The position numbers and the translations under genes are program-made. A DNA stretch of 64,000 bases. It comes from Cystobacter fuscus. Its GTDB lineage: Bacteria > Myxococcota > Myxococcia > Myxococcales > Myxococcaceae. The stretch covers positions 3,100,001-3,164,000 of the forward strand of contig NZ_CP022098.1 in NCBI RefSeq assembly GCF_002305875.1, given 5' to 3'. The notes under the pieces are model-generated. The model saw nothing but the letters and a program-made list of their open reading frames with translations. It was not told the DNA's origin and searched no databases. Positions 2,703-60,915 of this stretch are shown piece after piece; positions within the stretch are counted from its first letter, which is position 1; every line of letters starts with the position of its first letter.

Positions 2703-3305
2703 ATGACCGAAGTCCCACAGCCTCCAGGTCCCGCCCTCCGGGTGGCCCAGTTCGTCCCCCGCACCGAGGCGGAGGGTCCCGGTCACCGCTTCGCCCTGTG
2801 GCTCCAGGGCTGTCCGCTGCGCTGCCCGGGCTGCTGCAACCCGGAGATGTTCGCCCCCGATCGCGGCCCCCTCGTCACCGTCGAGGAACTCGCCCGGCGC
2901 GTCCTCTCCACCCCGGACCTCGAGGGCTTCAGCCTCCTCGGGGGCGAGCCCTTCGCCCAGCCCGGCCCCGCCGCCGCCCTGTGCGAGCGCCTCCGCGAGG
3001 CCGGTCTCTCCATCATGATCTTCAGCGGCTACACCCTCGCCGAGCTGCGTGCCCAGGCCAATCCAGAGGTGGAGCGGCTTCTCGCCGCCGCCGACCTGCT
3101 CGTCGATGGCCGCTTCGAGAAGGACCAGCCGGACACGCGCCGCCGATGGATTGGCTCGCGCAACCAGGTCCTGCACTTCCTCACGTCCCGCTACTCGCCA
3201 GACGATCCCCGGTTCTCCGCTCCCAACACCGCCGAAATCCACTTCGTGGACGGCAAGCTCGTCATCAACGGTTGGCCCGAGCTCGCCAACCGGCTGCGGC
3301 CATGA
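2703..3305 (+). CDS. Radical SAM activating enzyme, NrdG/PflA-like
   Basis: This 200-residue protein is a short radical SAM enzyme resembling anaerobic ribonucleotide reductase activase. LQGCPLRCPGCCNP gives the C-x3-C-x2-C iron-sulfur motif, and FSLLGGEPFAQP is the GGE motif that binds SAM. The length suits a minimal activase without extra clusters. No glycyl-radical enzyme lies in this window. Instead the gene opens an operon of AAA ATPases, overlapping the next gene by ATGA at 3302-3305. Its target is therefore probably an operon partner or a small peptide, which is inference. Confidence 0.8.
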   Translation: MTEVPQPPGPALRVAQFVPRTEAEGPGHRFALWLQGCPLRCPGCCNPEMFAPDRGPLVTVEELARRVLSTPDLEGFSLLGGEPFAQPGPAAALCERLREAGLSIMIFSGYTLAELRAQANPEVERLLAAADLLVDGRFEKDQPDTRRRWIGSRNQVLHFLTSRYSPDDPRFSAPNTAEIHFVDGKLVINGWPELANRLRP

Positions 3306-4351
3306 TGTCCGTCTCCCCGAGCGAACACGCCCTCCTCTCCCTCGCCCGCGCCATCGTGGGCTCGGGGCAGTACGCCTCCGTCGAGGACCTCCTCCTCACC
3401 CGCCACGCCGTTCCCCCGAAGCTCGGCCCCCGCGCGCTCCACGTGCTGCGCGACCTGCTCGCCAAGGGCATCGTCCTCGCTCTCGTCCGGCGCGGGGGTT
3501 GGCGGCGGCAGCGTCACCTCCACGAGGGACAGGGCGTGGAGGGCCGGCTCTGGCAACGGCACTCCGCCCCCGTGCTGCACTTCTCGTCCGCCTGCGTGCG
3601 GACCCTCCAGTGGCTCACCTCCCAGCCCCTCGGACGGCTCGACTGCGAGCCGCTCGAGGTGGTGGCTCCCCTCACGCTCGCCGACGAGCTTTTCCTCTAC
3701 CTGTGCTGTCACCTCGTGGCGGGCACGCCCTGTGGGCCTTCCGTGGGCGCCCAGCCCCTCTTCCGGCACTCGGCGCTCTGCCGGCTCGGCTTTCCCGAGC
3801 TGCTCGGCGCGCCTCCGCCCGGCTTCGATGCCTCGGCCTTCACGCCACTGCTCGCGGACAAGGGCCTCGTGCTCGAGGCCTTGCAGGCGGACCTCGCCCG
3901 CCGCTGGCTCCGCCTCGAGGAGTCCAAGCGCCGTGTCTCCGAGCCCGCGGACATGGTGGCACTCGGCTCGGCTCAGGAGGCGGTGCTCTCCTCCTTCCTG
4001 GATGCGCTCGAGGCCGCCCAGCGGAGGGAGCTCGCTGGCTTCCTGCTGGAGGCGGGCAGGGGACTGGTGGAACGCCCCGCGGCGCTTTGGGTGGAAGGAC
4101 TCTCCCCGCTCGCCTCCTTGCGCGCCCGTGCCGAGGCCTCCCGGGCCGCGGGCGCCTGGCTGAGGAGTCTCGCCCGGCTCGCCCGCTGGGACGCCGAGCA
4201 CCGCGCCGTGCGCTTCTTCGACGATGACTACGACGCGGCCCAGTTCCTGCTCTCCCAGTGGAACGCGTTCGGCGAGGCCGGCTTCCGGCTCGCGGCGGAG
4301 CGCGAGCGGACCCTCGCTTCCTTCGGCCCCATCGAAGCGGTTTCCAGCTAG
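3302..4351 (+). CDS. Uncharacterised helical protein of the FtsH-MoxR operon
   Basis: This 349-residue protein has no family I can name. It is rich in Leu, Arg and Ala and appears almost wholly helical (for example LARRWLRLEESKRR). Cys occur in a cluster around residues 127-162. The start ATG overlaps the stop of the radical SAM gene (ATGA); a second ATG follows immediately. Position and tight coupling suggest it is a structural or adaptor component of the FtsH-vWA-MoxR ternary system, corresponding to one of the family-specific accessory X domains. The exact domain class cannot be settled without a profile search. Confidence 0.6.
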   Translation: MMSVSPSEHALLSLARAIVGSGQYASVEDLLLTRHAVPPKLGPRALHVLRDLLAKGIVLALVRRGGWRRQRHLHEGQGVEGRLWQRHSAPVLHFSSACVRTLQWLTSQPLGRLDCEPLEVVAPLTLADELFLYLCCHLVAGTPCGPSVGAQPLFRHSALCRLGFPELLGAPPPGFDASAFTPLLADKGLVLEALQADLARRWLRLEESKRRVSEPADMVALGSAQEAVLSSFLDALEAAQRRELAGFLLEAGRGLVERPAALWVEGLSPLASLRARAEASRAAGAWLRSLARLARWDAEHRAVRFFDDDYDAAQFLLSQWNAFGEAGFRLAAERERTLASFGPIEAVSS

Positions 4352-4363
4352 CCTCCACTCCCC

Positions 4364-4930
4364 ATGAGTCGCGCCTACCGCATTTCCGTCTCCGAGTCCC
4401 TCAACCGCGTGGTGCGGGCCGAGGATGGTGTCTGCTCCAAGCTCGAGCTGTTGCCCATCCTCTCCCAGGAAGAGCTGGGGGGACTGCTCGCCGAGGAGCT
4501 GGCGCGCCGCGGCTTCACGCGCGAGGGCCCCGTCGCCCTGCGCACCGAGGCCGATGGCGTCCGGCTGGCCATCGACGTGCAGACGGGGGACGTGAGCGTC
4601 ACGCTCGCCGACGAGCGGGCCGTGGAGCTTGAGGCCACGGCGCAGCGCGGCTACGCCCGGGAGGAGGAGAAGGCGCAGGCCGAGGAGCAGGCCCGGGAAC
4701 AGGCCCGGGCGCGGCTGGAGGACCGGGCCAGCGTCGCCCGGGAGTCGCTGCGCGAGGACCTCACCCGCCGCCTGGAAGCCCGGTTGCGCGACCTGAAGCA
4801 GGAGCTGGACGCCGTCTCCAACAAGGTGACGGCCGAGGCCCTCAAGGTCCGGGCGCGGCAGCTCGGCACGGTGGAGGAGATCAGCGAGGATCCCGCCACC
4901 GGTTCGCTCACCATCAAGGTCCGTCTGTGA
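4364..4930 (+). CDS. Uncharacterised protein with beta N-terminus and coiled coil
   Basis: The 188-residue product has two parts. The first ~95 residues look beta-rich (YRISVSESLNRVVRAEDGV, then RLAIDVQTGDVSVTLADER). A highly charged coiled coil follows (REEEKAQAEEQAREQARAR to ~145), and a short strand-rich tail ends GSLTIKVRL. It follows the previous gene by 12 bp and overlaps the FtsH-like gene by GTGA. A beta domain plus coiled coil next to an AAA protease suggests a substrate- or partner-binding adaptor in the ternary system. It may correspond to one of the accessory domains described for those systems; no motif gives a direct function. Confidence 0.6.
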   Translation: MSRAYRISVSESLNRVVRAEDGVCSKLELLPILSQEELGGLLAEELARRGFTREGPVALRTEADGVRLAIDVQTGDVSVTLADERAVELEATAQRGYAREEEKAQAEEQAREQARARLEDRASVARESLREDLTRRLEARLRDLKQELDAVSNKVTAEALKVRARQLGTVEEISEDPATGSLTIKVRL

Positions 4931-7044
4931 GTGCCCTCATCCCCGAACAGGAACTGCCCGTCGAGCTGTCCCCCTTCGCGGCGGTGGAAGCGGCCTACCC
5001 CGCGGAGCTGGGTCGCGTGTGCGAGGCGCTGCAGCGGGGCCTCGCCGTCATGGTCGAGGCCGACAAGGAGCTGACGCCCTTCTTCTACAAGTGCCTGCGC
5101 GACCGGCTCAAGCGCGAGGGCAAGCAGTTCCTCTACCTGGATGGCCGCACCGCCCAGGAGCCCCCTCCGGGCATGCCGGCGCCGAGCCTCATGTCCACGC
5201 TCATCGCCCAGTTGCGCGATGCCGTGCGCGGCGCGGTGCGCGAGCGCATCGTGGTGTTGCCCCACCTGGATCTGCTCACCACCAGCAGCGGGGGACTCAC
5301 CTCCGAGGCGCGCGAGGTCATCCCGCTGCTCTACGAGAACCCGGAGATGGTGTGGGTGGGCTTCAAGGATCCCTCCTTCCCGCTGCCGCGCGTCATCGAG
5401 AACCTCTTCCCCCACCGCGAGAGCATCCTGGGCGTGGGCCGCGATCGGCTGCGCTACCTCGTCACCCAGCGCGAGAGCCGGAAGTTCGGCCGGGGACTCC
5501 AGCCCTACGCGCTCTACAAGCACGTGTCCGGCGTGAACGCCGTCCGCCTGCGGCGCCTGCTCGGGGCCATCACCGGCGAGGACTACCCCGCGGACGCCCG
5601 TCCCGCGTACGTGCAGTTGCGCACCGCCACCCTCTCCGGCTCGCTCAGCGTGCCGAACCTGGATCTGCACGGAGCCATTGGCGGCTACGCCAAGGTGAAG
5701 GAGCGGCTCCAGCGCGAGCTGCTGGACGTGCTGGCCCACAAGGAGACGCTCGGGGACGCCGAGCAGGTCAAGCAGGTGGAGTCGCTCCTGCCGCGCGGGA
5801 TGATCTTCTGGGGCCCGCCCGGCACGGGCAAGACGCTCTTCGCCAAGGCGATGGCCTCGGCGCTCGGCGCGGCCGTCACCGTGGTGAGTGGCCCCGAGCT
5901 CAAGAGCCGCTGGGTGGGCGAGAGCGAGGAGAACCTCCGGCAGATCTTCGTGCGCGCCCGTCAGGCCGCCCCCAGCATCATCATCTTCGACGAGCTGGAC
6001 TCGTTCGCCTCGGCGCGCGGCACGTACACGGGCTCGGGGGTGGAGCACTCCATGGTGAACCAGCTCCTCACGGAGATGGATGGCTTCCGCAAGGAGGAGC
6101 TCGTCTTCGTGGTGGGCACCACCAACTTCGTCGAGTCGCTGGATCCCGCGCTCCTGCGTCCCGGCCGCTTCGAGTTCCAACTGTGCATTCCCTATCCCAA
6201 CAGCACGGACCGGCGCGCCATCCTCTCCATCTATGACCGGAAGCTCGGCCTGGGCCTGTCCGAGCGGGCCATGGATTATGCGGTGAAGCGCACGGGAGAC
6301 CTGGTGGAGGGCACCGGCTCGCGCTACTCCGGCGATCACCTCCAGGCGCTGTGCCGGGCGCTGGCGCGGCGGCGGCTGCGCGAGGGCCACCTGGGCCCCA
6401 CCGAGCCGCTCGACGTGGAGCGCGCCCTCTCCGACTACCTCGATCGGCCCGAGCTCACCGCCGCCGAGGAGAAGGTGGTGGCCACCCACGAGGCCGGCCA
6501 CGCCCTCTGCGCGTTGCATTGTCCCCACGCTCCGCCCATCGATCGCATCTCCATCCGGGGGGACCTCGCCGGCTCGCTCGGCTTCGTGCAGTACGCGGAC
6601 CGGGCCCACCGCTACGTCGTCACCCGGGGCCAGCTCCTCGACAACCTCTGCGTGCTCTTCGGTGGCCGCGAGGCCGAGGCGCTCCTCCTGGACGACATCT
6701 CCATCGGTAGCGCGCAGGACCTGGAGCAGGCCACGGAGATCGCCCGCGCGCTCGTGCAGGAGTTCGGCATGGGCGAGGGCGACGCGCTCGCGGTGCAGCG
6801 CTTCGCCCCCTACGATCCTCGAGCGCCCTCGCTCCCGCTCTCCAATGCCACGCTCGAGCAGCTCGACGCCCAGGTGCGGCATCTGCTCGATTCCCAGCGG
6901 AAGCGGGCCCGGGACATCCTCCAGCGCGAGCGCGACCGCCTCCTCGCGCTGCGCGAGCTGCTGCTCGAACGCAAGGTGCTCGACCGCGAGGCCTTCGCCC
7001 ACCTGATGCCCTCCGCGGCGCCCAAGGAGCTCCCTCGTGGCTAG
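4927..7044 (+). CDS. Soluble FtsH-like AAA+ zinc metalloprotease
   Basis: This 705-residue ATP-driven protease starts at GTG 4927, overlapping the previous stop. Residues ~1-250 resemble a degenerate AAA module (FLYLDGR, VVLPHLDLL) and carry no membrane segment, unlike housekeeping FtsH. The active AAA domain has Walker A GPPGTGKT (296-303), Walker B IIIFDELD and the second region of homology LDPALLRPGRFE. The M41 peptidase domain has HEAGH at 521-525 and the third metal ligand Asp in GSAQDLEQA (598), so both activities look intact. Together with the MoxR and vWA-like proteins downstream it marks an FtsH-vWA-MoxR ternary system, presumably unfolding or degrading a specific client. Confidence 0.88.
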   Translation: MSALIPEQELPVELSPFAAVEAAYPAELGRVCEALQRGLAVMVEADKELTPFFYKCLRDRLKREGKQFLYLDGRTAQEPPPGMPAPSLMSTLIAQLRDAVRGAVRERIVVLPHLDLLTTSSGGLTSEAREVIPLLYENPEMVWVGFKDPSFPLPRVIENLFPHRESILGVGRDRLRYLVTQRESRKFGRGLQPYALYKHVSGVNAVRLRRLLGAITGEDYPADARPAYVQLRTATLSGSLSVPNLDLHGAIGGYAKVKERLQRELLDVLAHKETLGDAEQVKQVESLLPRGMIFWGPPGTGKTLFAKAMASALGAAVTVVSGPELKSRWVGESEENLRQIFVRARQAAPSIIIFDELDSFASARGTYTGSGVEHSMVNQLLTEMDGFRKEELVFVVGTTNFVESLDPALLRPGRFEFQLCIPYPNSTDRRAILSIYDRKLGLGLSERAMDYAVKRTGDLVEGTGSRYSGDHLQALCRALARRRLREGHLGPTEPLDVERALSDYLDRPELTAAEEKVVATHEAGHALCALHCPHAPPIDRISIRGDLAGSLGFVQYADRAHRYVVTRGQLLDNLCVLFGGREAEALLLDDISIGSAQDLEQATEIARALVQEFGMGEGDALAVQRFAPYDPRAPSLPLSNATLEQLDAQVRHLLDSQRKRARDILQRERDRLLALRELLLERKVLDREAFAHLMPSAAPKELPRG

Positions 7045-7303
7045 CCTCATCCTCCGTCTCCAGATCGATCCCTCCACGGGCAAGAAGGACATCCTCGTCA
7101 AGTACGAGAGCGATGCCGACGCCCTGCCCATGGAGCACGAGGAGGAGCATCGCCGCCTGGTGGACAAGCTCATCGCGGGCGGCGCGCTGAAGGCCTCCGA
7201 GGTGGGGCGCATCATCGTCGAGCGCGAGACGCCCGCGAGCACGGGCGGCGAGCAGACCCCGGCGTCCGAGGACGTCTCCGCACGCGTCGCGCGGAAGGCC
7301 TGA
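7037..7303 (+). CDS. Small beta-hairpin protein (DUF2997-like)
   Basis: This is an 88-residue protein. The opening strand-turn-strand (LILRLQIDPSTGKKDILVKY) resembles the short DUF2997 fold that often sits beside AAA ATPases. A helix (EHRRLVDKLIAGGAL) and a strand (RIIVERE) follow, with a disordered tail. It overlaps the FtsH-like gene by 8 bases and the next start by one base (TGATG). It may be a ubiquitin-like or adaptor component of the ternary system. The DUF2997 link is by eye and uncertain. Confidence 0.55.
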   Translation: MASLILRLQIDPSTGKKDILVKYESDADALPMEHEEEHRRLVDKLIAGGALKASEVGRIIVERETPASTGGEQTPASEDVSARVARKA

Positions 7304-10300
7304 TGCCCACGCTCTCCTTCCCCACCGAGGAGATCTTGCGGCTCGCGCTGACCTCGGGCCTCGTCCCCACCGAGGTCCAGGTGGCTCGCGCGCGCGTCCA
7401 GCGCACCGGGACGGGAGGACTCCTCGTCACGCCCGAGGCGCCCCTGACCCGTGCCCAGGTGAAGGCGCTCGGGGAGCTCGGCATCCGCCTCGATGAGCAA
7501 GCCTCCGGAGACGGCGCGGCCGTGAGCTGCTGGGCGGAGCTGCTCCCGGTCCGGCGGATGCCCGACCTGGACGTGCCCATCGGTCCGGTGCTCTTCCTGG
7601 CCGCGCACGAGCGCGAGCTGCTGCCCCTGGCCGGAGAGCTGCTGCGGCTCGGGTGTGACAGACAGGAGCTGTGCCTCGCCGGAAGTGGCTCCGAGCGCCG
7701 GGCGCTCCTGCGGGCCGTGGCCCCGCCGTACTTCACCCTCACGCGCGCCATCGATCGCATCGCGGGACTGCGCGCCTTCGCTCCCGTCACCGCCGGTTCG
7801 CAGGGGGTGTGGATGGAGCTGGGCCATACCCACCCCATGGCCCAGGCGCTCCGGGCGTCCCCGGGGACGTTGTTGCTGCTCCCGGGAGAGGGGCGCTGGA
7901 TGACCGCGCCGGACGGGCCCTGGCTGGACCTGTACCAGCTCGTGGACCTCCCGCTGCCCCAGCCCGCGGAGGACTGGGTGCCTCGCCCCGTGCCCGGACG
8001 CCTCTCGGTGCCCCTGCGGCTCCGCCAGGCCGCGCGCGTGGAGCCCGCCAGCCTCTGGGTGCTGCGCGAGAACGCCGTGGCCCAGGTCGAGTCCCTCGTG
8101 CACTCTCTGCCGGAGGCGCTGCTCGCGCAGCTGCGCTTCGCCGTCTCGGGCCCTCCCGAGGCTCCCCACGTCGTCCTCCGCGCCCGGCCGGGGCGGGAGA
8201 AGCCCCCGGAGCTCGGACTGTCCGCGACGGCCTACGCTCCCTTGCCCCAGCTTCCCACCCTCTACCTTCCCTGCGACGCGCTGCTGGAGCCTCCCTTGCG
8301 CGGGGACCGGCTGCGTGCCCTGCTCACGCCCGACGCGGACACCGTCACCTGGCTGCACCCCACGGGACAGGGGGCCTTCCGCGCCGAGCGCCTCCCGGAG
8401 CGCGCCTTCCAGCCGCTCGACGAGTGGGTGGAGTACGTCCTCGATACCGGCGCCGTGGCGCTCGAGCCCTGGGTGCGTGGCGCCACGTTCGACTTCGCGG
8501 CCTTCGAGGGCACGGACACCGGGCCGAGTGAAGAGTCCTCTCCGTCGGCGAAGGAGGAGGAGCCCGGGCGTCGCTCCTCTCGCCGCCGTTCCGCCGCCGC
8601 GCCCGCCTCCGAGCCCATCGCCGCGCCACGGATTCCCCGGGCGGAGGCGCCACGGCCTCCGCCCATGCGTCTGGCGCCCCTCACGCCCGCGCGGACGAGC
8701 GAGCTCGAGCGGGAACTCACCACGCGGGAGAAGGACTTCCTCGCGCTGGAGTCTCCGGCGGATGCGCCCGAGCGCCTGCCCGCGTGGGTGCGCATGGCGG
8801 AGCTCAACGGCCTGCTCGGGCGCGAGCGCGACGCGAGCCTGTGCTGGACCCGGGCCCTCTGGGAGACCTCGGGCGCCGAGGCGGCGTCCCTCGCGGCTCG
8901 CTGGGCGGAGTCCACGTCGCAAGGGGCCTCGCCCACCGAGCGGCTGGCCCTCGCCGCGCCCTCCGACGCGGACGTCCGCGCCCTCGCGAGTCACGTGCTG
9001 CGGGTGTTCCATGGCTCCGGTGAGCCGCTCGACGTTCCCGCGGTGCAGCGCTGGCTGGACCGGCACGATGGAGCGCTCGACGTGCGCTCGCTCTGGCTCA
9101 CCCGCGTCGCGCTGGCCCGGCTCGTCGGAGGCGATGCACTCGGACTGGCCCAGGCCGGAGACCGGGTGCTCGCCCTGTTGCACCGGGGCCTCTCCCGGTC
9201 GCGGGACGTGCCCACCTTCCTGCGCGCGAGCGTGGATGCGGCCCATGCCTCCCGGCTGCGCGCCCAGCTCGACGCGTTGCTCGAGCGCTTCGAGCGCACG
9301 CCCCGCCACCGCTCCGCTCTCGAGGCCCCCGTTGCCCTCACCGGATCCTATGTGCGCTTCGTCTTCGCCTGGGGACTCGCGCGGCTCGGGCACGCGGACC
9401 GGGCGCGGGAGCTGATGGCGAGCGCCACCTCCGGCCTGGAGGGGAAGGACCCCGTGCATGGCTTTCTCGGCCGGGCCTATGCGGCGCGGGTGGCGCAGGC
9501 CCTCGAGGGACTTCCTTCCGAGACACCGCTTCCCCACGAGCTGGCCACCGAGCTCCATGCCCTGGGCAGCTTCCACCGGTACAAGGTGGACCGGCTCCGG
9601 CAGGCCTCCACGATTCTCGAGCCGAGCGAGCGGTTGGATCCGGCGCGCTCCTTCGGACGGGGCGAGCGGGATCCTCGAGGCGAGGAGTTCGCCGTCCTGC
9701 GCGAGGAGAAGGACGTGGAGCGCCTCGTCACGGCCGTGGAGCAGCTCGCCGCCCGGGCGCTCTCCCTCCTCACGCCGGCCCCCGAGCGCCAGCGGTTGTT
9801 GGAAGGTCTGCTCGACACCCTTCCGCGGCTGCCACCGGCCCGAGCCCTGCCGCTGTTGGCCCGGCTGGTGCCCTCCATGGAAGGCCTGCCTGACGAGGCC
9901 CACGCCCTGCTCCTGGGGGATGCCCTCACGGTGGCGGGACACTTCGGCCGGGAGGATCACGTCAAGGCGCTGGTGGGACGGCTGCGCGCGCTGCTGGTGG
10001 GGCTCCAGCCAGGGGCGGAGGCCTGGGGCCATGGCATCCTCGGCGCGTCCCTGCGCGACCTGCGCCGCCTGGGACTGCTCCGCGAGGCCACCGGGCTGCT
10101 CGAGCCGGGCCAGCAGCTCCTCGCCCGTCCCGAGAAGGTTCCCCTGTCCACCCAGCTCGGCATCGCCGCCGGGCTCGCGCTGCTCGGACACCTGCCGGAG
10201 GCCACGGCCGTGTTCGAGCGCGCCTTCACCACCCTGGCCCGGTTCCAGGGACCCATGCCCGAGCGGCTCATCCTGACGCGGGGGCTCGCGGGGGCGCTGT

Positions 10301-10545
10301 CCCAGGCCCCGGTCGACGTGGCCCTGCCGGCGCTGGCGCGGCTGTCCGAGCAGCTCCCCGGGGTGACGGACAGCTACAACACCAACAGCCACTTCTGCCT
10401 GTCCGTGGTGGAATTCGCGGACGCGCTGGTGCTGGGGCACGTGGGAGTGGGGCAGGGGTCGGGTGAGCGCGCCCGGCGTTGGCTGGACGAGGACGAATTC
10501 CTGGTGCGGCGCCGCATCCACCGGGAGCTGGAGGAGCATCCATGA
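7303..10545 (+). CDS. Large ternary-system scaffold protein
   Basis: This is a 1,080-residue protein. Residues 1-430 mix strands and helices (PTEEILRLALTSGLVPTEVQ at the start). Residues ~430-490 form a Pro/Ala/Arg-rich, Ser-rich linker. Residues ~490-1080 are helical, with repeated Leu/Ala/Arg helices of TPR or HEAT type (ALLGDALTVAGHFGREDHVKALVGRL). No catalytic motif was seen. It overlaps its neighbours by 1 and 4 bases. Long proteins with variable helical halves are the usual accessory component of FtsH/MoxR ternary systems and probably recognise targets or assemble the complex. This role is inferred from context. Confidence 0.6.
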   Translation: MPTLSFPTEEILRLALTSGLVPTEVQVARARVQRTGTGGLLVTPEAPLTRAQVKALGELGIRLDEQASGDGAAVSCWAELLPVRRMPDLDVPIGPVLFLAAHERELLPLAGELLRLGCDRQELCLAGSGSERRALLRAVAPPYFTLTRAIDRIAGLRAFAPVTAGSQGVWMELGHTHPMAQALRASPGTLLLLPGEGRWMTAPDGPWLDLYQLVDLPLPQPAEDWVPRPVPGRLSVPLRLRQAARVEPASLWVLRENAVAQVESLVHSLPEALLAQLRFAVSGPPEAPHVVLRARPGREKPPELGLSATAYAPLPQLPTLYLPCDALLEPPLRGDRLRALLTPDADTVTWLHPTGQGAFRAERLPERAFQPLDEWVEYVLDTGAVALEPWVRGATFDFAAFEGTDTGPSEESSPSAKEEEPGRRSSRRRSAAAPASEPIAAPRIPRAEAPRPPPMRLAPLTPARTSELERELTTREKDFLALESPADAPERLPAWVRMAELNGLLGRERDASLCWTRALWETSGAEAASLAARWAESTSQGASPTERLALAAPSDADVRALASHVLRVFHGSGEPLDVPAVQRWLDRHDGALDVRSLWLTRVALARLVGGDALGLAQAGDRVLALLHRGLSRSRDVPTFLRASVDAAHASRLRAQLDALLERFERTPRHRSALEAPVALTGSYVRFVFAWGLARLGHADRARELMASATSGLEGKDPVHGFLGRAYAARVAQALEGLPSETPLPHELATELHALGSFHRYKVDRLRQASTILEPSERLDPARSFGRGERDPRGEEFAVLREEKDVERLVTAVEQLAARALSLLTPAPERQRLLEGLLDTLPRLPPARALPLLARLVPSMEGLPDEAHALLLGDALTVAGHFGREDHVKALVGRLRALLVGLQPGAEAWGHGILGASLRDLRRLGLLREATGLLEPGQQLLARPEKVPLSTQLGIAAGLALLGHLPEATAVFERAFTTLARFQGPMPERLILTRGLAGALSQAPVDVALPALARLSEQLPGVTDSYNTNSHFCLSVVEFADALVLGHVGVGQGSGERARRWLDEDEFLVRRRIHRELEEHP

Positions 10546-11597
10546 GTGTTCCCAATCGGGAGCCCGCGGACGGCCGGATCGCCGTCGACCCCATCACCGA
10601 GCTGTCCCACGAGGCGCTCTCGCGCGAGTCGCAGGCGCTGCGCGATCGCATCAACCGCTTCCGGCTCTCGCTGGGGCGGCACTTCGTGGGCAAGCAGACG
10701 CTGGTGGACCTGATGACGGTGGCGGCGGTGGCGCAGGAGCCGCTGCTGCTGGTGGGTCCACCGGGCACGGCCAAGTCCGAGCTGGTGCTCAAGTTCAAGG
10801 ACGCCCTGCGCATCGGGGACGAGGACTACTTCGAGTACCTGCTCACGCGCTTCACCGAGCCCTCGGAGGTGCTGGGCCCCATCGACATCAACCTGTTGCG
10901 GCAGGGCCGCTACATGCGGCGCGAGAGGGGCAAGCTGCCCACGGCGCGGCTCGTCTTCCTGGACGAGGTCTTCAAGGCCAGCTCGGCCATCCTCAACGCG
11001 CTGCTCACGGTCATCAACGAGCGCAAGTTCTACCAGGACGGCGCGCCCCAGCCGGTGCGGCTCAAGGTGCTCTTCGCCGCCACCAACGAGCTGCCCGAGC
11101 ACGCGGAGCTGGGGGCGCTCAAGGATCGCTTCTGCCTGAAGGCGGCGTGCCGCCCGGTGCAGGACCGCTACTTCCTCGAGCTCATCGACGCGGGCCTGGA
11201 GTCGCAGACGCAGCGCGAGCTGAACCAGAAGCCCTGGGCGGAGGGCCACGCCACGCTGGAGGACTTCCTCAAGGCGCACCGCTACCTGACGCTGGTGATG
11301 AGCCGGCGCGAGCCGGGGCCGGAGGGGCGCGAGCTGCGCGACCGGGAGCTGTTCTTCCGCGACGAGCTGCTGCGCGAGTTCCGCCGCGTGGTGCAGACGC
11401 TCACCCGCGAGGACGGCGTCTTCATCAGCGATCGCAAGCTGGTGAAGCTCTACCGGCTGTTGCGCACGCGGGCGTGGATCTTCCATGGGGGCGCCGTCGA
11501 GCGGGAGGACCTGGTGCTGCTCTCCTTCCTGGGAGAGACGCGCGAGGAGATCGACCTGCTGGAGGAGAAGGTGCCGCGGCTGCTCGGGCTGACATGA
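10542..11597 (+). CDS. MoxR-family AAA+ ATPase
   Basis: This 351-residue MoxR/RavA-type ATPase probably remodels a vWA-linked partner. It has Walker A GPPGTAKS (72-79), Walker B LVFLDEVFKAS, sensor 1 LFAATNELP, and the MoxR hallmark EPSEVLGPIDI after the first helix insert. ATG 10542 overlaps the preceding stop (ATGA), and the next gene again begins at ATGA, so MoxR and the vWA-like protein are translationally coupled as usual for these pairs. The ATPase residues are all present. The family is close to RavA rather than to the shorter methanol-dehydrogenase MoxR group. Confidence 0.9.
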   Translation: MSVPNREPADGRIAVDPITELSHEALSRESQALRDRINRFRLSLGRHFVGKQTLVDLMTVAAVAQEPLLLVGPPGTAKSELVLKFKDALRIGDEDYFEYLLTRFTEPSEVLGPIDINLLRQGRYMRRERGKLPTARLVFLDEVFKASSAILNALLTVINERKFYQDGAPQPVRLKVLFAATNELPEHAELGALKDRFCLKAACRPVQDRYFLELIDAGLESQTQRELNQKPWAEGHATLEDFLKAHRYLTLVMSRREPGPEGRELRDRELFFRDELLREFRRVVQTLTREDGVFISDRKLVKLYRLLRTRAWIFHGGAVEREDLVLLSFLGETREEIDLLEEKVPRLLGLT

Positions 11598-13015
11598 CGA
11601 CGGAGCCACGGGGACCCGAGGAAGCGGAGCGGTGGCTGTGCGCGGGGCTGTGCCTCGCGCGGCTGGAGGGCACGTCCCCCGAGGCCGTGGCGCAAGCCGT
11701 GCCCTGGCTGCTGGCGGCCCACGCCGAGCTCCCGGCGCTGCCTCCCCTGGGGGTGGTGGTGGACCTCGGGAGGCTGGCGCTGGGCGCGCCACTCGAGTCC
11801 TCGCGGCCGGTGCCGGACTCCGTGCCCTCGCTGCGGGCGGCGGTGCGTGCCTATGAGGACCAGCTGCTCGCGCGGCTGGCCGCCGAGCCGCACCTGGAGG
11901 CGGTGGTGAACGCGCTGGCCCGCATGCCCGCGGAGCTGCGGCCCCGCGGCGTGGCCTTCCTGGTGGCCCGGGTGCTCACGCGGCTGGGGTTCACGGGGGG
12001 CACGGCGGTGAATCCCGGGCTCGCGCGGCGGGTGCTCGAACATCCTCCCGCCGAGCTGCTCCAGACGGGCCACGCGGCGCTGCGCGAGCGGGGCGCGGAG
12101 GTGGAGCGGCTGGCCGAGGCCTACGAGGCCCTGGGCGGCGCGGCCCGGCGGGCGCGGGCGCTGTTGGGCGACGCGGAGGTGTTCACCCTGGAGAACCTGG
12201 AGCGGCTCCAGGGGCGGGCGCGGCGGCTGGCGCTGGAGCAGGCGGTGGAGGCGGCGGAGGCGCTCGCCGAGGCCCTGCCCAGGCGGATGCGGCCCCGGAA
12301 GCCCGCCTCGGGTCAGACGCCCTCGCACCTGGAGGACGACGCGGCGTTTCCCCAGGGAGGCTTCTCCTCGGTGTCCAACGTGGGGAGCCTGGAGAACCTG
12401 GTCACGTCGGAGCTCGTCTACATGGAGGACGACGCGGGGTTGGATCTGTTCGATCTGCGCTACGTGGAGGGCGAGCTGCTCTACTACACGCGGGACGAGA
12501 GCCTCGTGGTGCGGCGGCGGCGGCGGGTGACGTTCGCGCTGCTGCCGGGGCTGACGGAGGCCCGCGTCAAGGACGCGGGGCTGCGCTGGCAGCGGGGCGT
12601 GCTGGTGCTGGGGCTGGTGCTGAGCCTGGTGCGGCGGTTGTCCGTGTGGCTGGGGGATGAGGAGCTGCGCTTCCGGGTGGTGGTGGTGGGCGAGGGGCTG
12701 GAGGCGGAGCGGGGCCTGTGCGAGCTGCTGCTGCGCGAGTGGCTCGAGCGAGGTAACGCGGAAGTGACGGCGGCGGAGCGCCTGGAGTCGGTCCTCGCCC
12801 AGGCCGGGGAGGACGCGAAGCGGGCCCGCACGGACGTGCTCCTCCTGGGGGGCCGGGAGATGCCTCCCGCTCCATCCCAGGTGGGCCTGGCGCTGCTCGA
12901 CGTCTCCCAGCCGGTGCCTCGGCTCTCGCCCGCCTCGTCTCCCGAGCCACCCGGGGAGGAGCCATGGGCCACGTGGCGTGGAGTGACGCTTGAGCTTGCG
13001 CGAGGGCTCCTCTAG
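11594..13015 (+). CDS. Degenerate vWA-like protein of the ternary system
   Basis: This 473-residue protein sits where MoxR systems place their vWA protein. Residues 1-230 are helical. After an acidic linker, residues ~290-430 have an alternating strand-helix order: RVTFALLPGLTEAR, then a helix, then LRFRVVVVGEG, a helix, and DVLLLGGREM. The expected metal-site motif D-x-S-x-S is absent; LLPGLTEAR sits at that strand end. It is probably a vWA fold that binds partners without the usual metal, which is inference. Start ATG 11594 overlaps the moxR stop. It is the last gene of the tightly coupled set. Confidence 0.6.
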   Translation: MTTEPRGPEEAERWLCAGLCLARLEGTSPEAVAQAVPWLLAAHAELPALPPLGVVVDLGRLALGAPLESSRPVPDSVPSLRAAVRAYEDQLLARLAAEPHLEAVVNALARMPAELRPRGVAFLVARVLTRLGFTGGTAVNPGLARRVLEHPPAELLQTGHAALRERGAEVERLAEAYEALGGAARRARALLGDAEVFTLENLERLQGRARRLALEQAVEAAEALAEALPRRMRPRKPASGQTPSHLEDDAAFPQGGFSSVSNVGSLENLVTSELVYMEDDAGLDLFDLRYVEGELLYYTRDESLVVRRRRRVTFALLPGLTEARVKDAGLRWQRGVLVLGLVLSLVRRLSVWLGDEELRFRVVVVGEGLEAERGLCELLLREWLERGNAEVTAAERLESVLAQAGEDAKRARTDVLLLGGREMPPAPSQVGLALLDVSQPVPRLSPASSPEPPGEEPWATWRGVTLELARGLL

Positions 13016-13039: not shown

Positions 13040-14404
13040 ATGCCGCTTTACGAGTTCAAGGAGGGCAACTCCAGCAAGTTCTGGGAGATCACCCTCTCGG
13101 GTAACAGCTTCACCACGCGCTGGGGGAAGATCGGCACCAAGGGCCAGGAGAAGACGCAGAGCTTCTCCAACGCCGTCGAGGCCAAGCGCGAGCACGACAA
13201 GCTCATCGCCGAGAAGACGAAGAAGGGCTACGAGCTGGCCGACGGCCAGGAGGCGCCCGGCGAGGACGAGGAGGGTGATGACTCGGCGAACCTGGCCAAG
13301 CGCAACCCGGAGCTCGAGGCGGCCATCGAGAAGGATCCGGACAACGTCGAGGGCTACCTCGTCTATGGCGACTGGCTGCAGAGCCAGGGAGACCCTCGTG
13401 GCGAGCTGATCGCCCTGCAGTGCGCGGCGCACCAGGCGTCGGGCGAGGAGGCCACGAAGCTCAAGCGTCAGGCGTCGGCGCTGGTGCGCAAGTACAAGAA
13501 GTACCTGCTGGGGGCGCTGGCGGACAAGGAGGACAACGAGGTGGAAGTGGGGTGGCGCTTCGGCTTCATCCAGAGCGCCCGCCTGGCCCGGGGAGACTTC
13601 GACTCGGAGTTCGATTCCGCCGAGGCGGTGAAGCACCTGATGGCGCTGCCCTCGGCCCGCTTCCTGCGTGAGCTCACCTTCGGCATGGCGGATTACGAGG
13701 AGAACGACTACAGCGAGGCCATCGGGGCGCTGGCGGGGACGACGTGCCCCACGCTGGAGACGCTCTTCATCGGTGACTTCGAGTATCCGGACGAGACGGA
13801 GATCTCCTGGACGCACCTGCAAGACCTCTCGCCGGTGTACAAGGCCTTCCCCCGCCTGCGCTCGCTGAAGGTGCGTGGAGGCGAGCTGGAGATGGGCGAG
13901 GTGAACCTGCCGGAGCTGCGTGAGTTCACCGTGGAGACGGGTGGGTTGCCGCTGGATGCGGTCAAGTCCATCGTGAAGGCGAACTGGCCGAAGCTGGAGC
14001 GGCTGGAGGTGTGGTTCGGCTCGGAGAACTACGGCGCGGGAGGCGGCGTGGACGACATCCAGCCCCTGCTCGAGGGCAAGGGCGTGCCGGCGCTCAAGCA
14101 CCTGGGGCTGCGCAACGCGGAGTTCACCAACGAGCTGTGCAAGGCGCTGCCACGGGCGAAGATCCTCTCCCAGCTCGAGACGCTGGACTTGTCCATGGGC
14201 ACGATGACGAAGGAGGGCGCGGAGGCGCTGGTGGCGAACGCGGCGGCCTTCAAGCACCTCAAGCGCCTGGACGTGACGGAGAACCTCTTGTCGGACGAGG
14301 CCCAGAAGCAGGTGGCGAAGCTGGGCGAGTACGTGGCGCACGGCAACCAGCGTGACGACTACGACGAGGACGACGACTACCGCTACGTGGCGGTGGGCGA
14401 GTAG
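13040..14404 (+). CDS. WGR-domain / leucine-rich STM4015-family protein
   Basis: This is a 454-residue protein. Residues 1-75 form a WGR domain (RWGKIGTKGQEKTQSF), known from PARPs and bacterial regulators as a nucleic-acid or partner-binding module. Residues ~88-130 match the short repeat-companion domain (NPELEAAIEKDPDN, then YGDWLQSQGDPRGELIAL). Residues ~170-430 form irregular leucine-rich repeats (LKHLGLRNAEF, LETLDLSMG, LKRLDVTENLLSDEA) as in STM4015. The acidic tail is Asp/Tyr-rich. It starts 24 bp after the vWA-like gene and 12 bp before the ATP-grasp-like gene, so it may be shared between, or simply border, both systems. Confidence 0.8.
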   Translation: MPLYEFKEGNSSKFWEITLSGNSFTTRWGKIGTKGQEKTQSFSNAVEAKREHDKLIAEKTKKGYELADGQEAPGEDEEGDDSANLAKRNPELEAAIEKDPDNVEGYLVYGDWLQSQGDPRGELIALQCAAHQASGEEATKLKRQASALVRKYKKYLLGALADKEDNEVEVGWRFGFIQSARLARGDFDSEFDSAEAVKHLMALPSARFLRELTFGMADYEENDYSEAIGALAGTTCPTLETLFIGDFEYPDETEISWTHLQDLSPVYKAFPRLRSLKVRGGELEMGEVNLPELREFTVETGGLPLDAVKSIVKANWPKLERLEVWFGSENYGAGGGVDDIQPLLEGKGVPALKHLGLRNAEFTNELCKALPRAKILSQLETLDLSMGTMTKEGAEALVANAAAFKHLKRLDVTENLLSDEAQKQVAKLGEYVAHGNQRDDYDEDDDYRYVAVGE

Positions 14405-14416
14405 CGGGAGTCCCGG

Positions 14417-15541
14417 GTGGGCGCGCCGCCGTTCCTGCTCATCGGCAATCCGGAGAACCGGCGCGTCACCCTCTTCCAGGCGGCCCTGGCCGCCCGGGGC
14501 CTTCCTCCCGCGCACGTGGTGCCCTGGCGCGAGCTGCTGAGGGAGCCGGCGGTGCTCGCGGATCTGCCGGACACCGAGCGGCTCGTGCGCATCGACGCCG
14601 CGGGCGAGAGCTTCGAGGTGGAGAAGGCGCTGCTGAAGCGGGGCCACGAGGATGCGCGGGCGCTCGGGTGCGCCGTGCTCACGCCCGAGCAGATTGACGC
14701 CCTCCCCGAGGACCGTGGGCGCATCCTCTGCCCGAGGCAGTACCACCTGGGCTTCCTGCGGACCCTGAGCCAGTTGGAGGCCATCTTCGCCGAGCACCCC
14801 CGCTGGCGGGTGCTCTCCTCGCCCGCGAGCATCGCGGAGCTCTTCGACAAGCGCCTCACCTCGCGAAAGTACGCGGCGCGGGGCATCCCGGTGCCGCCGT
14901 CGCTGGAGGGCATCACGGACGTGGAGTCGCTGCGGACGCGGATGCGGGAGGAGGGCTGGCGCGAGGCGTTCGTGAAGCTCTCGTGCGGCTCCTCGGCGTC
15001 GTGCCTGGGCATCTTCCGGTTGGGCCGCTCGGACGAGTCCCTGTTCACCACCCTCGAGCAGACGGACACCGGCTGGTACAACTCACTCAAGGTGCGCCGC
15101 CTCCGCGAGCCCCGGCGGGTGGAGGCGGCCCTGGAGTTCCTCCTGCGCGAGGGTTCGCAGGTGGAGCGGGCCCTGCCCAAGGCACGGCTGCGCGGGGAGT
15201 TCTTCGACTGCCGGGTGCTGATGGTGCGGGGCGAGCCGGCCTTCACCGTCATCCGTCAGAGCCGCCACCCCATCACCAACCTGCACCTGGGGGGCAAGCG
15301 CGGCGACATGGACGCCTTCCTCGCGGCGGTGCCTCCGCGCGAGCTGGAGGCGGCGATGGAGACGTGCCGCCAGGTGGCGCGAGCCCATGATTGCCTGCAC
15401 GTGGGGATCGATCTCATGTACGAGGCGTACTTCCAGGGCCACGCGGTCCTGGAGGCCAACGCCTTCGGAGATCTGCTGCCCAATCTGCGGCGCGACGGGC
15501 TCTCCGTCTACGAGTGGGAGATCCGCGAGGCGCTGCGCTGA
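14417..15541 (+). CDS. STM4014-family ATP-grasp-like ligase
   Basis: This 374-residue protein resembles the ATP-grasp superfamily, whose members join carboxylates to amines using ATP. The N-terminal pre-grasp segment (FLLIGNPENRRVTLFQAALAARG) is followed by DKRLTSRKYAARGIPVPPS, AFVKLSCGSSASCLGIF as the nucleotide loop, RGEFFDCRVLMVRGEPAFTVIRQS, and CLHVGIDLMYE then HAVLEANAFGDLLPNL, with the Glu and Asn metal ligands. GTG 14417 has GCGGGAG upstream. Its 3' end overlaps the convergent radical SAM gene by 34 bp. By order and similarity it is the STM4014 member of a conserved, uncharacterised gene set. Confidence 0.78.
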   Translation: MGAPPFLLIGNPENRRVTLFQAALAARGLPPAHVVPWRELLREPAVLADLPDTERLVRIDAAGESFEVEKALLKRGHEDARALGCAVLTPEQIDALPEDRGRILCPRQYHLGFLRTLSQLEAIFAEHPRWRVLSSPASIAELFDKRLTSRKYAARGIPVPPSLEGITDVESLRTRMREEGWREAFVKLSCGSSASCLGIFRLGRSDESLFTTLEQTDTGWYNSLKVRRLREPRRVEAALEFLLREGSQVERALPKARLRGEFFDCRVLMVRGEPAFTVIRQSRHPITNLHLGGKRGDMDAFLAAVPPRELEAAMETCRQVARAHDCLHVGIDLMYEAYFQGHAVLEANAFGDLLPNLRRDGLSVYEWEIREALR

Positions 15542-16401
15542 GCCTGCCAGAGGGGCTCCACCGGCACGCGCTCGAGGATGCCCGAGCCGAACACGCGATC
15601 CAGCTCCAGGTAGTCCAGGTGCACGTAGCCGATGTGACACCCGCATGTCGCCTTGGCACAGGGGCGTGGGCGGAGGACCTGCTCGAAGCCGGGCTCGTAG
15701 ATGTTGCCGAGGAACTCGCGCACGAAGTGGCACCGGCGCGCCGAGCCCGCGCCGTCCACGGAGATGACGCTCTCCCCGGTGCGGCACGCCTTGCCGAGGC
15801 TCGGGTGGTGGGTGTTGTTGAGGGAGAAGAGGGGATCGACGCGGGAGAAGCGCTCCACGTCCTCGGGGGTGTAGCGCTCCTCCTTGCCGTCCTTGACGGC
15901 GTTGATCCACAGGTACACGTCTGGAGGCAGCTCGCCGCGCAGGGCCTCGGCCTCCTCGGCGAAGCGGCGGAAGCCCACCATGCCCACGCTGTAGCGCACG
16001 CCCAGGGCGCCCAGCCGCTCGCACTGCGACACGAAGCGCCTGCGCTTCATCCACTCGGGGTGGAAGGTGGCCCAGATGCCGAGCTTCTCCGGCTGGCAGC
16101 GCTCCACCCACTCCAGGGTGCAGGAGAGGTTCGTCTGGATGGCGGCCCGCTCGACGTGGGGCATCCGCGTGAGCCGCACCAGGGCCTCCTGATACCAGGG
16201 GCGGATGAGTCCCTCGCCCCACGGGGTGAAGAACACCGACACGGGGTAGGGCCGGGACCCGACCCAGTCGACGAAGCGCTCGACGCCCGCGCGATCCTCG
16301 GCCAGCTCCGCGTCGTCCTGCTTCCACTTGCCGAAGGGGCAGTACTCGCAGCCGAAGTTGCAGTTCGACAGCGGACCCCGGTAGAGCACGGTGAGCTTCA
16401 T
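15508..16401 (-). CDS. STM4011-family radical SAM protein
   Basis: This is a 297-residue radical SAM enzyme. CNFGCEYCPFGKWK near the N-terminus (residues ~13-20) is the C-x3-C-x2-C cluster motif, and FFTPWGEGL lies where the GGE motif is expected. C-terminal cysteines (ARRCHF, CAKATCGCHIGYVHLDYL) suggest a second iron-sulfur site. ATG 16401 overlaps the stop of the upstream STM4012-like gene (ATGA). Longer frames upstream only read through that neighbour. It probably acts on a peptide or small metabolite with the STM4012 partner. The reaction is unknown. Confidence 0.8.
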   Translation of the reverse strand: MKLTVLYRGPLSNCNFGCEYCPFGKWKQDDAELAEDRAGVERFVDWVGSRPYPVSVFFTPWGEGLIRPWYQEALVRLTRMPHVERAAIQTNLSCTLEWVERCQPEKLGIWATFHPEWMKRRRFVSQCERLGALGVRYSVGMVGFRRFAEEAEALRGELPPDVYLWINAVKDGKEERYTPEDVERFSRVDPLFSLNNTHHPSLGKACRTGESVISVDGAGSARRCHFVREFLGNIYEPGFEQVLRPRPCAKATCGCHIGYVHLDYLELDRVFGSGILERVPVEPLWQAQRSASRISHS

Positions 16402-17714
16402 CGCCACGAGTACCCCTCCATCAACGCGCGCACCGGCTCGGAGTGCAGCCACGGGCCGATGAGATCCGAGCGCTCCACGCCCGCGTCCGTGAGGTGCAGC
16501 GCCTCCGGGGTGCGCCGCGCGAGGCCATGGGTCTCCAGCTCGGCCAGCTCCGGGAAGTCCGCGAGCGCCTCGGTACCGAAGCGCTGGCGGTAGGCGGCGA
16601 ACTCCACGCCCTCGGCGAGCAGGGAGAGGAGCATGTGGCGCCGGCGCTGTTCCGCCTCGTCGAGGACGAAGCCGTAGCCCACCTCGCCGAAGGAGGCCTC
16701 GGTCCGCTCGCTGTAGGCGGCGATGATGGAGCGCACCTCGCGCGAGCCCACGGCGTACTCGGAGGAGTAGTGCATGCGCTCGGTGTACGAGCGGGCCCCG
16801 CACCCGAGCCCCACCATCCCATCCTCCTGGCAGCGGTACACGGGCCCTTCCACCGAGGGGGCGTGGCGGGCGCGGAACATGCGCATGGACACCTGGGTGT
16901 AGCCCTCGGAGCGCAGGAAGTCGCGGCCGGCGCGATAGAGGGCGAGCCGCTGATCATCCCAGGCCCGCGCCTTCTTGCCGAGGAAGGTGAGGGGCCGGAC
17001 ATAGAGGGGGTAGAGGTAGAGCTCCTCGGGGGCGAAGCGGAGGGCGGCGCGCAGCGAGGCGAGCCACGTCTCCTCGGTCTGGGCCTCCATGCCGTAGATG
17101 AGATCGATGTTGAGCGTGGGGAAGCCCGCGGAGCGCAGCAGGTCCAACGTGGCCTCCACCTGGGCCGTCTTCTGGGGCCGCTTGACCGAGGCCACCTCGG
17201 ACTCGAGGAAGCTCTGCACGCCGATGCTCACCCGATCCACGCCGCGCGAGCGCAGGGCGGCCACCTTGGCGGCGTCCACCGTTTCGGGAGAGACCTCCAC
17301 GGAGACGGGGAGGCGGTGCGGGTCGGCGCCCATGACCTGTTCGGCGAGGTCGAAGACGGTGTGCAGCCCGGCCACGTCGAGCAGGGTGGGGGTGCCTCCG
17401 CCCACGGCGATGCGCGCGAAGGGGGTGGGCCCGAGCGCCTCCTTCACCCGGCGGGCTTCTCGCGTGAGGGCCTGGAGGTAGACCTGGACGACGTCCTCCT
17501 TGGGACCGGCGGCGGTGAAGAGGTTGCAGAAGCCGCAGCGCATCTCGCAGAAGGGGATGTGCAGGTAGAGGAAGAGGGCCTCGCGCCGCTCCCGGGCCCA
17601 GACGGACTCCAGGGAGGGGGCTGGCGAGAGGGGACGGTAGGCCGTCTTGTGCGGATAGCCATAGAGGTACGCCACGTAGGGCGATCCTCCGAGCATCGTC
17701 TCCAGGCGCGTCAT
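16398..17714 (-). CDS. STM4012-family radical SAM protein (HemN/HemW-like)
   Basis: This 438-residue protein has the coproporphyrinogen-oxidase-like radical SAM fold. FLYLHIPFCEMRCGFCNLF holds C-x3-C-x2-C, IAVGGGTPTLLD is the second SAM motif, and VSVEVSPETVDAAKVAALRSRGVDRVSIGVQSF is the HemN-type segment. The C-terminal half has the HemW-like winged helix. Heme synthesis is unlikely given the neighbours. Start ATG 17714 overlaps the stop of the sulfatase-like gene (ATGA). It is the middle gene of a minus-strand operon running from HAD through STM4013 and STM4012 to STM4011. Confidence 0.85.
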   Translation of the reverse strand: MTRLETMLGGSPYVAYLYGYPHKTAYRPLSPAPSLESVWARERREALFLYLHIPFCEMRCGFCNLFTAAGPKEDVVQVYLQALTREARRVKEALGPTPFARIAVGGGTPTLLDVAGLHTVFDLAEQVMGADPHRLPVSVEVSPETVDAAKVAALRSRGVDRVSIGVQSFLESEVASVKRPQKTAQVEATLDLLRSAGFPTLNIDLIYGMEAQTEETWLASLRAALRFAPEELYLYPLYVRPLTFLGKKARAWDDQRLALYRAGRDFLRSEGYTQVSMRMFRARHAPSVEGPVYRCQEDGMVGLGCGARSYTERMHYSSEYAVGSREVRSIIAAYSERTEASFGEVGYGFVLDEAEQRRRHMLLSLLAEGVEFAAYRQRFGTEALADFPELAELETHGLARRTPEALHLTDAGVERSDLIGPWLHSEPVRALMEGYSWR

Positions 17715-18523
17715 GACTCGGGCTCTCCCGGCAGCGGAAACTCCGCGTAGGGAACCGTCCATACCACCGGATGGCCGATCCGGTGACCGGAGTAACCGTC
17801 CTCCCCGTACGCCGTGCCGTGGTCCGAGCAGACGATGCAGAAGGAGGGCCCCCGGCGGCGCAGGGCGGCGAAGAGGGGAGGAAGCTGGCTGTCCACGTAG
17901 GCGAGCGCCGCCGCGTGCGAGTCGCGCGAGTCCCCGGTGGCGCCGGGCAGGTAGAAAGAGTTGGGCTGGTGCAGGGCGGAGACGTTGAGGAAGAGGAACA
18001 CCCGGCGCTCGCGCGGCAGGGCATCGAGCAGCCGTACGGCGAGGCCTACCTGGTTCTCGGTGGAGCGGGGGTCGCGCACGCCCAGCTCGGGGCTCCAGTG
18101 GCTCTCGGCGAAGAAGCCGGGGAGGACGCTGCCCAGGGGGTTGAGCTTGTTGAAGAAGCCCACGCCGCCGATGCAGACGGTGTGGTAGCCGCGCCCGGCG
18201 AGCCCGGAGACGATGTCGGGGGTATCGAAGACGCAGGTGCCGGAGTCGGTGGTCTCGCTGCCCTGGAAGCGGGCGGCGAAGAGACGGGAGTGGCGGCTGG
18301 GCTCGACGGGGGTGGGCAGGAAGCCGGCGAAGAAGGCGTGGTGGGCGGCGTAGGTGAAGCTGGCGGGCGAGTGCCGCCGCTCCCAGCGTCCGCTGGGGAG
18401 GAGGGAGGCGAGGTGGGGCGTCCTGCCCTGGGCGAGCGTCTCCTCGGCCACGTCGAGGCGCAGGGTGTCCAGGGTGAGGAAGAGCAGGTCGTGGGTGCCG
18501 ACCAGGGCGTTCATGTCCGTCAC
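17711..18523 (-). CDS. STM4013/SEN3800-family sulfatase-fold hydrolase
   Basis: This 270-residue protein has the alkaline phosphatase/sulfatase fold. LLFLTLDTLRLDVA carries the metal-binding Asp and the Thr at the nucleophile position, and CIVCSDHGTAYGEDGYSGHRIGH carries the C-terminal Asp-His and His ligands. No C-x-P-x-R sulfatase signature is seen, so it may be a phospho- or phosphonohydrolase. GTG 18523 overlaps the HAD stop (TAGTG). ATG 18514 is an alternative start. It is coupled to the two radical SAM genes. Confidence 0.8.
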   Translation of the reverse strand: MTDMNALVGTHDLLFLTLDTLRLDVAEETLAQGRTPHLASLLPSGRWERRHSPASFTYAAHHAFFAGFLPTPVEPSRHSRLFAARFQGSETTDSGTCVFDTPDIVSGLAGRGYHTVCIGGVGFFNKLNPLGSVLPGFFAESHWSPELGVRDPRSTENQVGLAVRLLDALPRERRVFLFLNVSALHQPNSFYLPGATGDSRDSHAAALAYVDSQLPPLFAALRRRGPSFCIVCSDHGTAYGEDGYSGHRIGHPVVWTVPYAEFPLPGEPES

Positions 18524-60907: not shown

Positions 60908-60915
60908 GGTCACTC

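Follow-up and report, generated by a model that had tools for sequence, protein, structure and literature searches.

An eight-gene FtsH ternary system in Cystobacter fuscus shares its radical SAM family with DUF1257/DUF2997 loci

Introduction

The closest described relatives of the locus reported here are the FtsH-vWA-MoxR, or FtsH ternary, systems, for which a conflict role was predicted from genomes in 2020 (Kaur, Burroughs, Iyer and Aravind, eLife 2020, PMC7159879), the only article in the literature searched that contains the phrase "FtsH ternary system". As described in the passages of that article on which we draw, the simple subtype combines a vWA protein bearing a large N-terminal helical domain, a MoxR ATPase, an FtsH-type protein and a standalone radical S-adenosylmethionine (SAM) enzyme; the FtsH-type protein contains two AAA copies, of which the second is active and the N-terminal one is devoid of P-loop and Walker B motifs, and GxxxTAKS is a frequent P-loop of MoxR. 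The same passages give a standalone radical SAM enzyme or NEFF1 as the effector gene, propose that the target of the radical SAM enzyme is a peptide effector encoded by a further standalone gene, and note a P-loop variant common to FtsH ternary and MoxR-vWA-beta-propeller systems. The window analyzed in this work, a stretch of 64,000 nucleotides (positions 3,100,001-3,164,000 of contig NZ_CP022098.1) from the 12.35-Mb, single-contig genome of the myxobacterium Cystobacter fuscus, contains an eight-gene operon at window positions 2703-13015 (+ strand) that is almost certainly an FtsH ternary system of the simple type.

The genes encoding Ycf46, DUF1257 (Ycf35) and DUF2997, which also enter into the analysis of this operon, are known from cyanobacteria and algal plastids. 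In its cyanobacterial version this module adjoins a ferredoxin gene, in the arrangement duf2997-ycf35-fed7 (PMC4284462).

Results

Gene content and class of the operon

The original prediction, made from the letters of the DNA, held that eight genes follow each other with overlaps of 1-8 bases and a single gap, and the open reading frames (ORFs), all on one strand, bore out the count, the coordinates and the junctions (overlaps of 4, 4, 8, 1, 4 and 4 bases; a gap of 12 bases). All eight proteins exceeded curated Pfam cut-offs. Four of them, which had been taken for unknown partners, belong in fact to named Pfam families, i.e. fvmX6 (FtsH ternary system domain X6; 3302..4351, +; 349 amino acids (aa); PF20004, E=3.2e-73), fvmX5 (4364..4930, +; 188 aa; PF20003, E=1.1e-49), fvmX3-analog (7037..7303, +; 88 aa; PF20002, E=3.5e-31) and fvmX7 (7303..10545, +; 1080 aa; PF20005, E=5.3e-76), hereafter X6, X5, X3-analog and X7. 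The other genes encode a radical SAM enzyme of the NrdG-like superfamily (rSAM; 2703..3305, +; 200 aa), an FtsH-like protease (4927..7044, +; 705 aa; AAA, 5.7e-40; Peptidase_M41, 8.7e-38), a bpMoxR AAA+ chaperone (10542..11597, +; 351 aa; PF20030, E=2.2e-60) and an ivWA protein (11594..13015, +; 473 aa; ivWA, 1e-31; ivWA-helical_N, 9.8e-17), the last two corresponding to the MoxR ATPase and the vWA-like protein that had been predicted. The profile search of each protein thus returned Pfam families coined for FtsH ternary systems, with five proteins matching system-specific families and MoxR matching bpMoxR, rather than unrelated housekeeping families, and gene order was conserved in relatives.

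Because MoxR, FtsH and NrdG-like radical SAM proteins are common superfamilies, a chance adjacency of unrelated housekeeping genes was also considered. The probability of this explanation is negligible given the system-specific Pfam models, the conserved order and the fact that the genome encodes a further two M41 proteins, and it is refuted by the all-or-none co-occurrence over 195 genomes described below; a chance assembly is excluded because the gene set is kept in other genomes.

The operon agrees with the simple subtype in nearly all features amenable to testing, having in common with it the MoxR protein, a divergent vWA with an N-terminal helical domain, FtsH, a standalone radical SAM enzyme, the GxxxTAKS P-loop of MoxR and a distribution over deltaproteobacteria and planctomycetes (PMC7159879, as far as the passages used here describe it). 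It differs from the subtype as outlined in those passages in lacking a separate peptide-effector gene, with the possible exception of X3-analog, and in that X5, X6, X7 and X3-analog make up the rest of the operon; the same passages contain no mention of a link to DUF1257/Ycf46 or of an HExxH motif in X3-analog. The FtsH, MoxR and vWA core is also common to the complex subtype, which is characterized by ubiquitin-like (Ubl) conjugation and a beta-propeller vWA, but the operon is unlike that subtype, with no Pfam match to Ubl, E1, E2, JAB, EAD1 or beta-propeller domains in its eight proteins and the two flanking ones. Similarly, the match to the bpMoxR model (E=2.2e-60) recalls the MoxR-vWA-beta-propeller ternary systems, from which the operon differs in having FtsH and no beta-propeller.

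Catalytic and other motifs of the encoded proteins

The FtsH-like protein contains an active AAA domain (residues 292-423) and an M41 zinc peptidase domain (residues 511-692), and the Walker A (GPPGTGKT), Walker B (IIIFDELDS) and HEAGH motifs are present, in agreement with the predicted intact protease. Walker A, Walker B and the second region of homology were conserved across 38 aligned FtsH sequences, all 38 of which had the zinc motif HE[ASC]GH. Residues 1-290 lack a P-loop, show RIVVLPHLDLL at a possible Walker B position and matched no AAA profile. No clear transmembrane segment was found in the eight proteins (the top 19-residue hydropathy mean was 1.86, in ivWA, and that of FtsH was 1.51), and therefore the designation of the protease as soluble holds. 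The operon does not encode the sole FtsH of the genome, since two further M41 proteins are encoded elsewhere, three in all.

The P-loop of MoxR is GPPGTAKS in the window protein and GxPGTAKS in 8 of 8 aligned sequences, and its Walker B motif is FLDE[VI]F. The ivWA protein consists of ivWA-helical_N (residues 9-235) and a divergent vWA region (ivWA, residues 253-429) in which no DxSxS motif was seen. The rSAM protein matched Fer4_12 (1.6e-32) and Radical_SAM (3.8e-8) and carries a CX3CX2C motif (CPLRCPGCC), the cysteines of which were conserved in no fewer than 19 of the 21 sequences aligned; possible in-frame starts lie further upstream at 2658, 2688 and 2697. The protein, predicted to be a radical SAM activase, is NrdG-like at the superfamily level and remained under the NrdG cut-off (TIGR02491; 92.4 vs 126.1 bits). 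It resembles NrdG, the activase of anaerobic ribonucleotide reductase, in being a small Fer4_12-type radical SAM protein, and the operon contains no reductase gene. A role in activating a glycyl radical enzyme was considered, and no such enzyme is encoded in the operon. The catalytic motifs of FtsH, MoxR and rSAM are intact.

In the 88-aa X3-analog the motif HExxH is nearly invariant, which is a new observation: all 28 sequences of the alignment have EHExxH, and it was lost in two outliers (L048 and L200). Its predicted fold is b-b-a-b followed by a disordered tail, in a low-confidence model with a predicted local distance difference test (pLDDT) score of 57.9. A complete protease is unlikely in so small a protein, and metal binding would be a guess. 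In fvmX7, the X7 domain spans residues 1-381 and is followed by a long C-terminal part with no Pfam match. The best overall explanation of the operon, to which we assign a probability of about 0.6, is a simple-type FtsH ternary system that most likely works as a soluble, ATP-driven machine for remodelling and proteolysis.

Distribution and co-inheritance

The distribution of the system was analyzed in samples of 195 Myxococcota and 199 Planctomycetota genomes. Within Myxococcota, fvmX5 was over the cut-off in 52 of the 195 genomes, nearly all of one family. The rSAM protein was found in 52/52 of these genomes, X6 in 50 genomes, all of them with X5, and X7 in 52, of which 49 had X5. This near all-or-none occurrence of X5, X6, X7 and rSAM over the Myxococcota sample, split operons included, is a new observation. 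The operon was present, essentially in single copy, in all 27 genomes of genus g19 (G112-G138) and in 3 of the 4 genomes of the genus of the window. No listed genome of g3 or g6 contained it, and the operon is therefore not essential. A second, divergent X5 was found in one genome (G068), and a second, partial X6 (profile positions 220-343) lies far from the operon in another (G091:C1:704262-704621).

The compact form of the operon is that of g19 and of the genus of the window. In the split form (g4 and g26) three modules, rSAM-X6, X5-FtsH-X3-analog and X7-MoxR, were recognized, and ivWA was not seen in those stretches; the persistence of these modules through splitting suggests that they are working sub-assemblies. 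Family f25 has rSAM-X6-X5, with FtsH absent within the stretch examined. Among planctomycetes, one locus (L136) shows the order rSAM-X6-X5-FtsH and another (L200) the order FtsH-(X7-like)-MoxR-ivWA-rSAM-(X3-like)-(X6-like)-X5, in which the genes in parentheses were recognized by eye, and in some loci rSAM adjoins X5 with FtsH absent.

Several deviations from these arrangements were recorded. In one member of the genus of the window (L034:14568-15059), X6 and X5 are separated by a hydrophobic 163-aa ORF, and in one g19 genome (G138:C10:254367-266511) the starts of X5 and X7 are about 11 kb apart instead of the usual 3 kb or so, with some 8 kb apparently inserted. A Myxococcus-type operon was found in a contig titled Comamonas sp. 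KCTC 72670 (L073, BNCN01000003.1), a title that is probably wrong. In seven split operons (L036, L037, L038 and L041-L044) X3-analog is followed by an 84-87-aa protein with no Pfam match, and next to it in L036, L037 and L038 by an FHA-type protein. Such genes between X3-analog and X7 (an 85-aa ORF, the FHA protein and others) were considered as variable effectors and rejected, because the modules are merely apart there and the compact operons do not contain them.

In the FtsH tree, g1, g19 and g26 were each kept together and g4 was interrupted only by g25, and this agreement with the genera favors vertical descent with losses. These results bear on an explanation of the operon as an anti-phage or conflict system, in which invasion would be sensed, and thresholding by MoxR-vWA together with proteolysis by FtsH would release a modified peptide, the effector by which the cell is killed or arrested. 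Its homology to the class defined by the genome survey, for which enrichment in multicellular bacteria was reported (PMC7159879, in the passages used), points to such a role, as do the patchy presence among genera of one family and an HExxH mini-protein and a radical SAM enzyme reminiscent of peptide processing. However, the compact operon contains neither an effector domain nor a variable gene, its single copy in the 27 g19 genomes and a tree that follows the genus fit weakly, the PADLOC matches were all of a generic AAA kind (IetA, TRIP13 and RtcR, among others) with none specific for a system, and the downstream neighbor is a STM4011-4015-type cluster rather than a defense island. No relative of X5 was found in viral contigs. 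We consider the conflict explanation possible and somewhat doubtful. A fast-evolving effector system is disfavored by the constant composition, the single copy and the vertical descent, which are still compatible with defense; as newly observed here, a single-copy, genus-bound operon with no variable effector gene resembles a stable machine more than a locus engaged in an arms race.

The same constancy of composition, vertical inheritance and lack of variable effectors speak for a stable maintenance or developmental machine, in which a cofactor would be inserted or removed or a specific complex turned over, as is thought for other MoxR-vWA pairs, any link to conflict being secondary. Against it, the operon is missing from all listed g3 and g6 genomes of the same family and from 1 of the 4 genomes in the genus of the window. 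A role of this kind is a serious possibility that does not reach even odds, and it gains further support from the rSAM family, which is common to the Ycf46/DUF1257/DUF2997 module that adjoins ferredoxin in cyanobacteria (PMC4284462).

The radical SAM family in DUF1257/DUF2997 loci

A single rSAM family is common to this operon and to DUF1257/DUF2997 loci, with or without a Ycf46-type ATPase, in two phyla, which is a new observation. L207 and L208 each contain clustered genes for Ycf46, DUF1257, DUF2997 and rSAM, and in L068 rSAM is convergent to an operon of the same type. DUF2997, a coiled-coil DUF1257 and rSAM are together in L215 and also in L216, there by alignment of the middle protein, and the neighbor of rSAM is of the DUF1257 type in both L225 and L232 and is DUF2997 in L223 and L226; the Pfam cut-offs were passed by two coiled-coil proteins for DUF1257 and by one protein for DUF2997. 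Among the Myxococcota genomes that lack X5, rSAM was found in 9 of 18 with DUF1257 and in 7 of 125 others (Fisher p=7e-6), and in G042 and G044-G047 both are found within some 6 kb; in the Planctomycetota sample DUF1257 was present in 17 genomes, rSAM in 22 and both in 12 (p=5e-10, or 2e-5 excluding X5 genomes), p-values that overstate the evidence because genome counts treat kin as independent. In a tree of 46 rSAM proteins, those linked to FtsH, those paired with X5, some of those linked to Ycf46 and those of other contexts formed one mixed group.

Probable relation of X5 to DUF1257

The AlphaFold2 model of X5 (pLDDT 89.5) shows b-a-b-b-b-b, a 68-residue helix (the coiled coil), and b-b. In Pfam, X5 matched fvmX5 and, weakly, NUDE_C, and did not reach the DUF1257 model, and in hhalign the full-length comparison with DUF1257 was weak (probability 1-4%). 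When the coiled coil was removed from the X5 profile, a choice made after inspection of the sequences and the only condition under which the relation became visible, the alignment with DUF1257 spanned 95 columns (probability 17%, E=0.0014; 0.2% for the reversed control), and that with DUF1257 supplemented with the coiled-coil DUF1257 proteins ran end to end (E=5.8e-5, probability 65.5%). In a column-shuffle control with a choice of eight deletions, the highest score among 60 was 20.4, compared with 25.3 observed. Moreover, a profile of rSAM-linked DUF1257-type proteins alone retrieved one planctomycete X5 (L102, the same as L136) at E=0.0026 among 25,309 ORFs, flanked in the ranking by DUF1257 proteins and matched over its C-terminal half, coiled coil included, and it matched nothing among reversed sequences. 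A Foldseek search of the PDB with the X5 model gave nothing at E<=0.001, and the best VIA-align Z score (8.3, KICSTOR) was within the usual background. These profile comparisons suggest that X5 is likely, though not proven, to be a distant relative of DUF1257/Ycf35.

Flanking genes

Directly downstream of the operon (window 13040-18523) lies the STM4011/STM4014/STM4015-type cluster, with a WGR/LRR STM4015-like protein just under the cut-off, STM4014 and a STM4011 radical SAM gene on the opposite strand; additional genes resemble the remaining members of such a cluster. A WGR-LRR gene is found downstream of the operon in g19 loci too. On the - strand at window positions 58745-61827, a pyrroloquinoline quinone-type biosynthesis cluster was recognized by eye (a radical SAM protein, a small carrier-like protein, PqqC-like and PqqB-like proteins).

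Discussion

The quartet rSAM-X5-FtsH-X3-analog may be an elaborated form of an older module composed of an AAA ATPase, a DUF1257/Ycf35-type protein, a small DUF2997-type protein and a dedicated radical SAM enzyme, a proposal to which we give slightly less than even odds; with the same reserve, the M41 protease, MoxR-vWA, X6 and X7 would have been added to that module. The likeness to the Ycf46-DUF1257-DUF2997 module lies in an AAA ATPase, an X5/DUF1257-like protein and a small protein, and also in rSAM proteins of one family, which are encoded within or beside some operons of that module (L068, L207 and L208) and, with DUF1257/DUF2997 and no Ycf46, in L215 and L225. As differences, the AAA protein of the operon bears the M41 protease and X5 bears a long coiled coil, and MoxR, vWA, X6 and X7 were not found in the Ycf46-DUF1257-DUF2997 operons. 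A hidden Markov model of Ycf46 that matched FtsH was discarded, because iteration had admitted general AAA domains.

For the remodelling and proteolysis machine favored here, the most economical reading of the sequences, and an inference, is modification of X5 or X3-analog by rSAM followed by FtsH proteolysis gated by MoxR/vWA. The rSAM enzyme would modify a partner protein, with X5 as the likeliest target and X3-analog next. FtsH, soluble and presumably hexameric, would recognize the modified partner or its complex, unfold it and cleave it, and MoxR with its ivWA co-chaperone and X7 would assemble or disassemble the complex, so that proteolysis would be released only under a trigger such as infection, stress or a developmental cue. 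The modules that survived splitting could then correspond to separate units for modification, for proteolysis (the protease and its small partners) and for chaperone activity. The scheme is possible and somewhat less likely than not, and the assignment of the modified protein, the sequence of events and the nature of the trigger are its tentative parts.

Several results weigh against these proposals. Besides the overstated p-values, in L218-L220, L222 and L227 rSAM is preceded by an AAA protein of another kind, in which the P-loop is GPTGVGKT, and not by DUF1257, so that the link to DUF1257 is not universal. No profile relation was detected between X3-analog and DUF2997 in Pfam or hhalign, nor any hhalign match between the N-terminal regions of FtsH and Ycf46, and therefore the whole quartet is not claimed to be orthologous to the Ycf46 module. 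In addition, X3-analog is the only small gene of the operon, which offers no other candidate for a peptide effector.

The operon clearly exemplifies a type of system that was predicted in 2020 and is apparently still unstudied at the bench in the literature searched, and it has relatives in several species, including M. xanthus, of the standard laboratory genus Myxococcus. The pattern of co-inheritance shows which genes are to be kept together in experiments, the common rSAM family and the likely relation of X5 to DUF1257 lead to a concrete and testable substrate hypothesis, and the HExxH of X3-analog, a protein of 88 aa, offers another feature open to experiment. An orphan component of a predicted conflict system may in this way be linked to ycf35 and ycf46, long unexplained genes of plastids and cyanobacteria. 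If the operon is indeed an elaboration of the older module, a predicted immune system would be tied to the Ycf46/Ycf35 genes of cyanobacteria and algal plastids, and the radical SAM enzyme would modify a DUF1257/X5-type protein in both systems.

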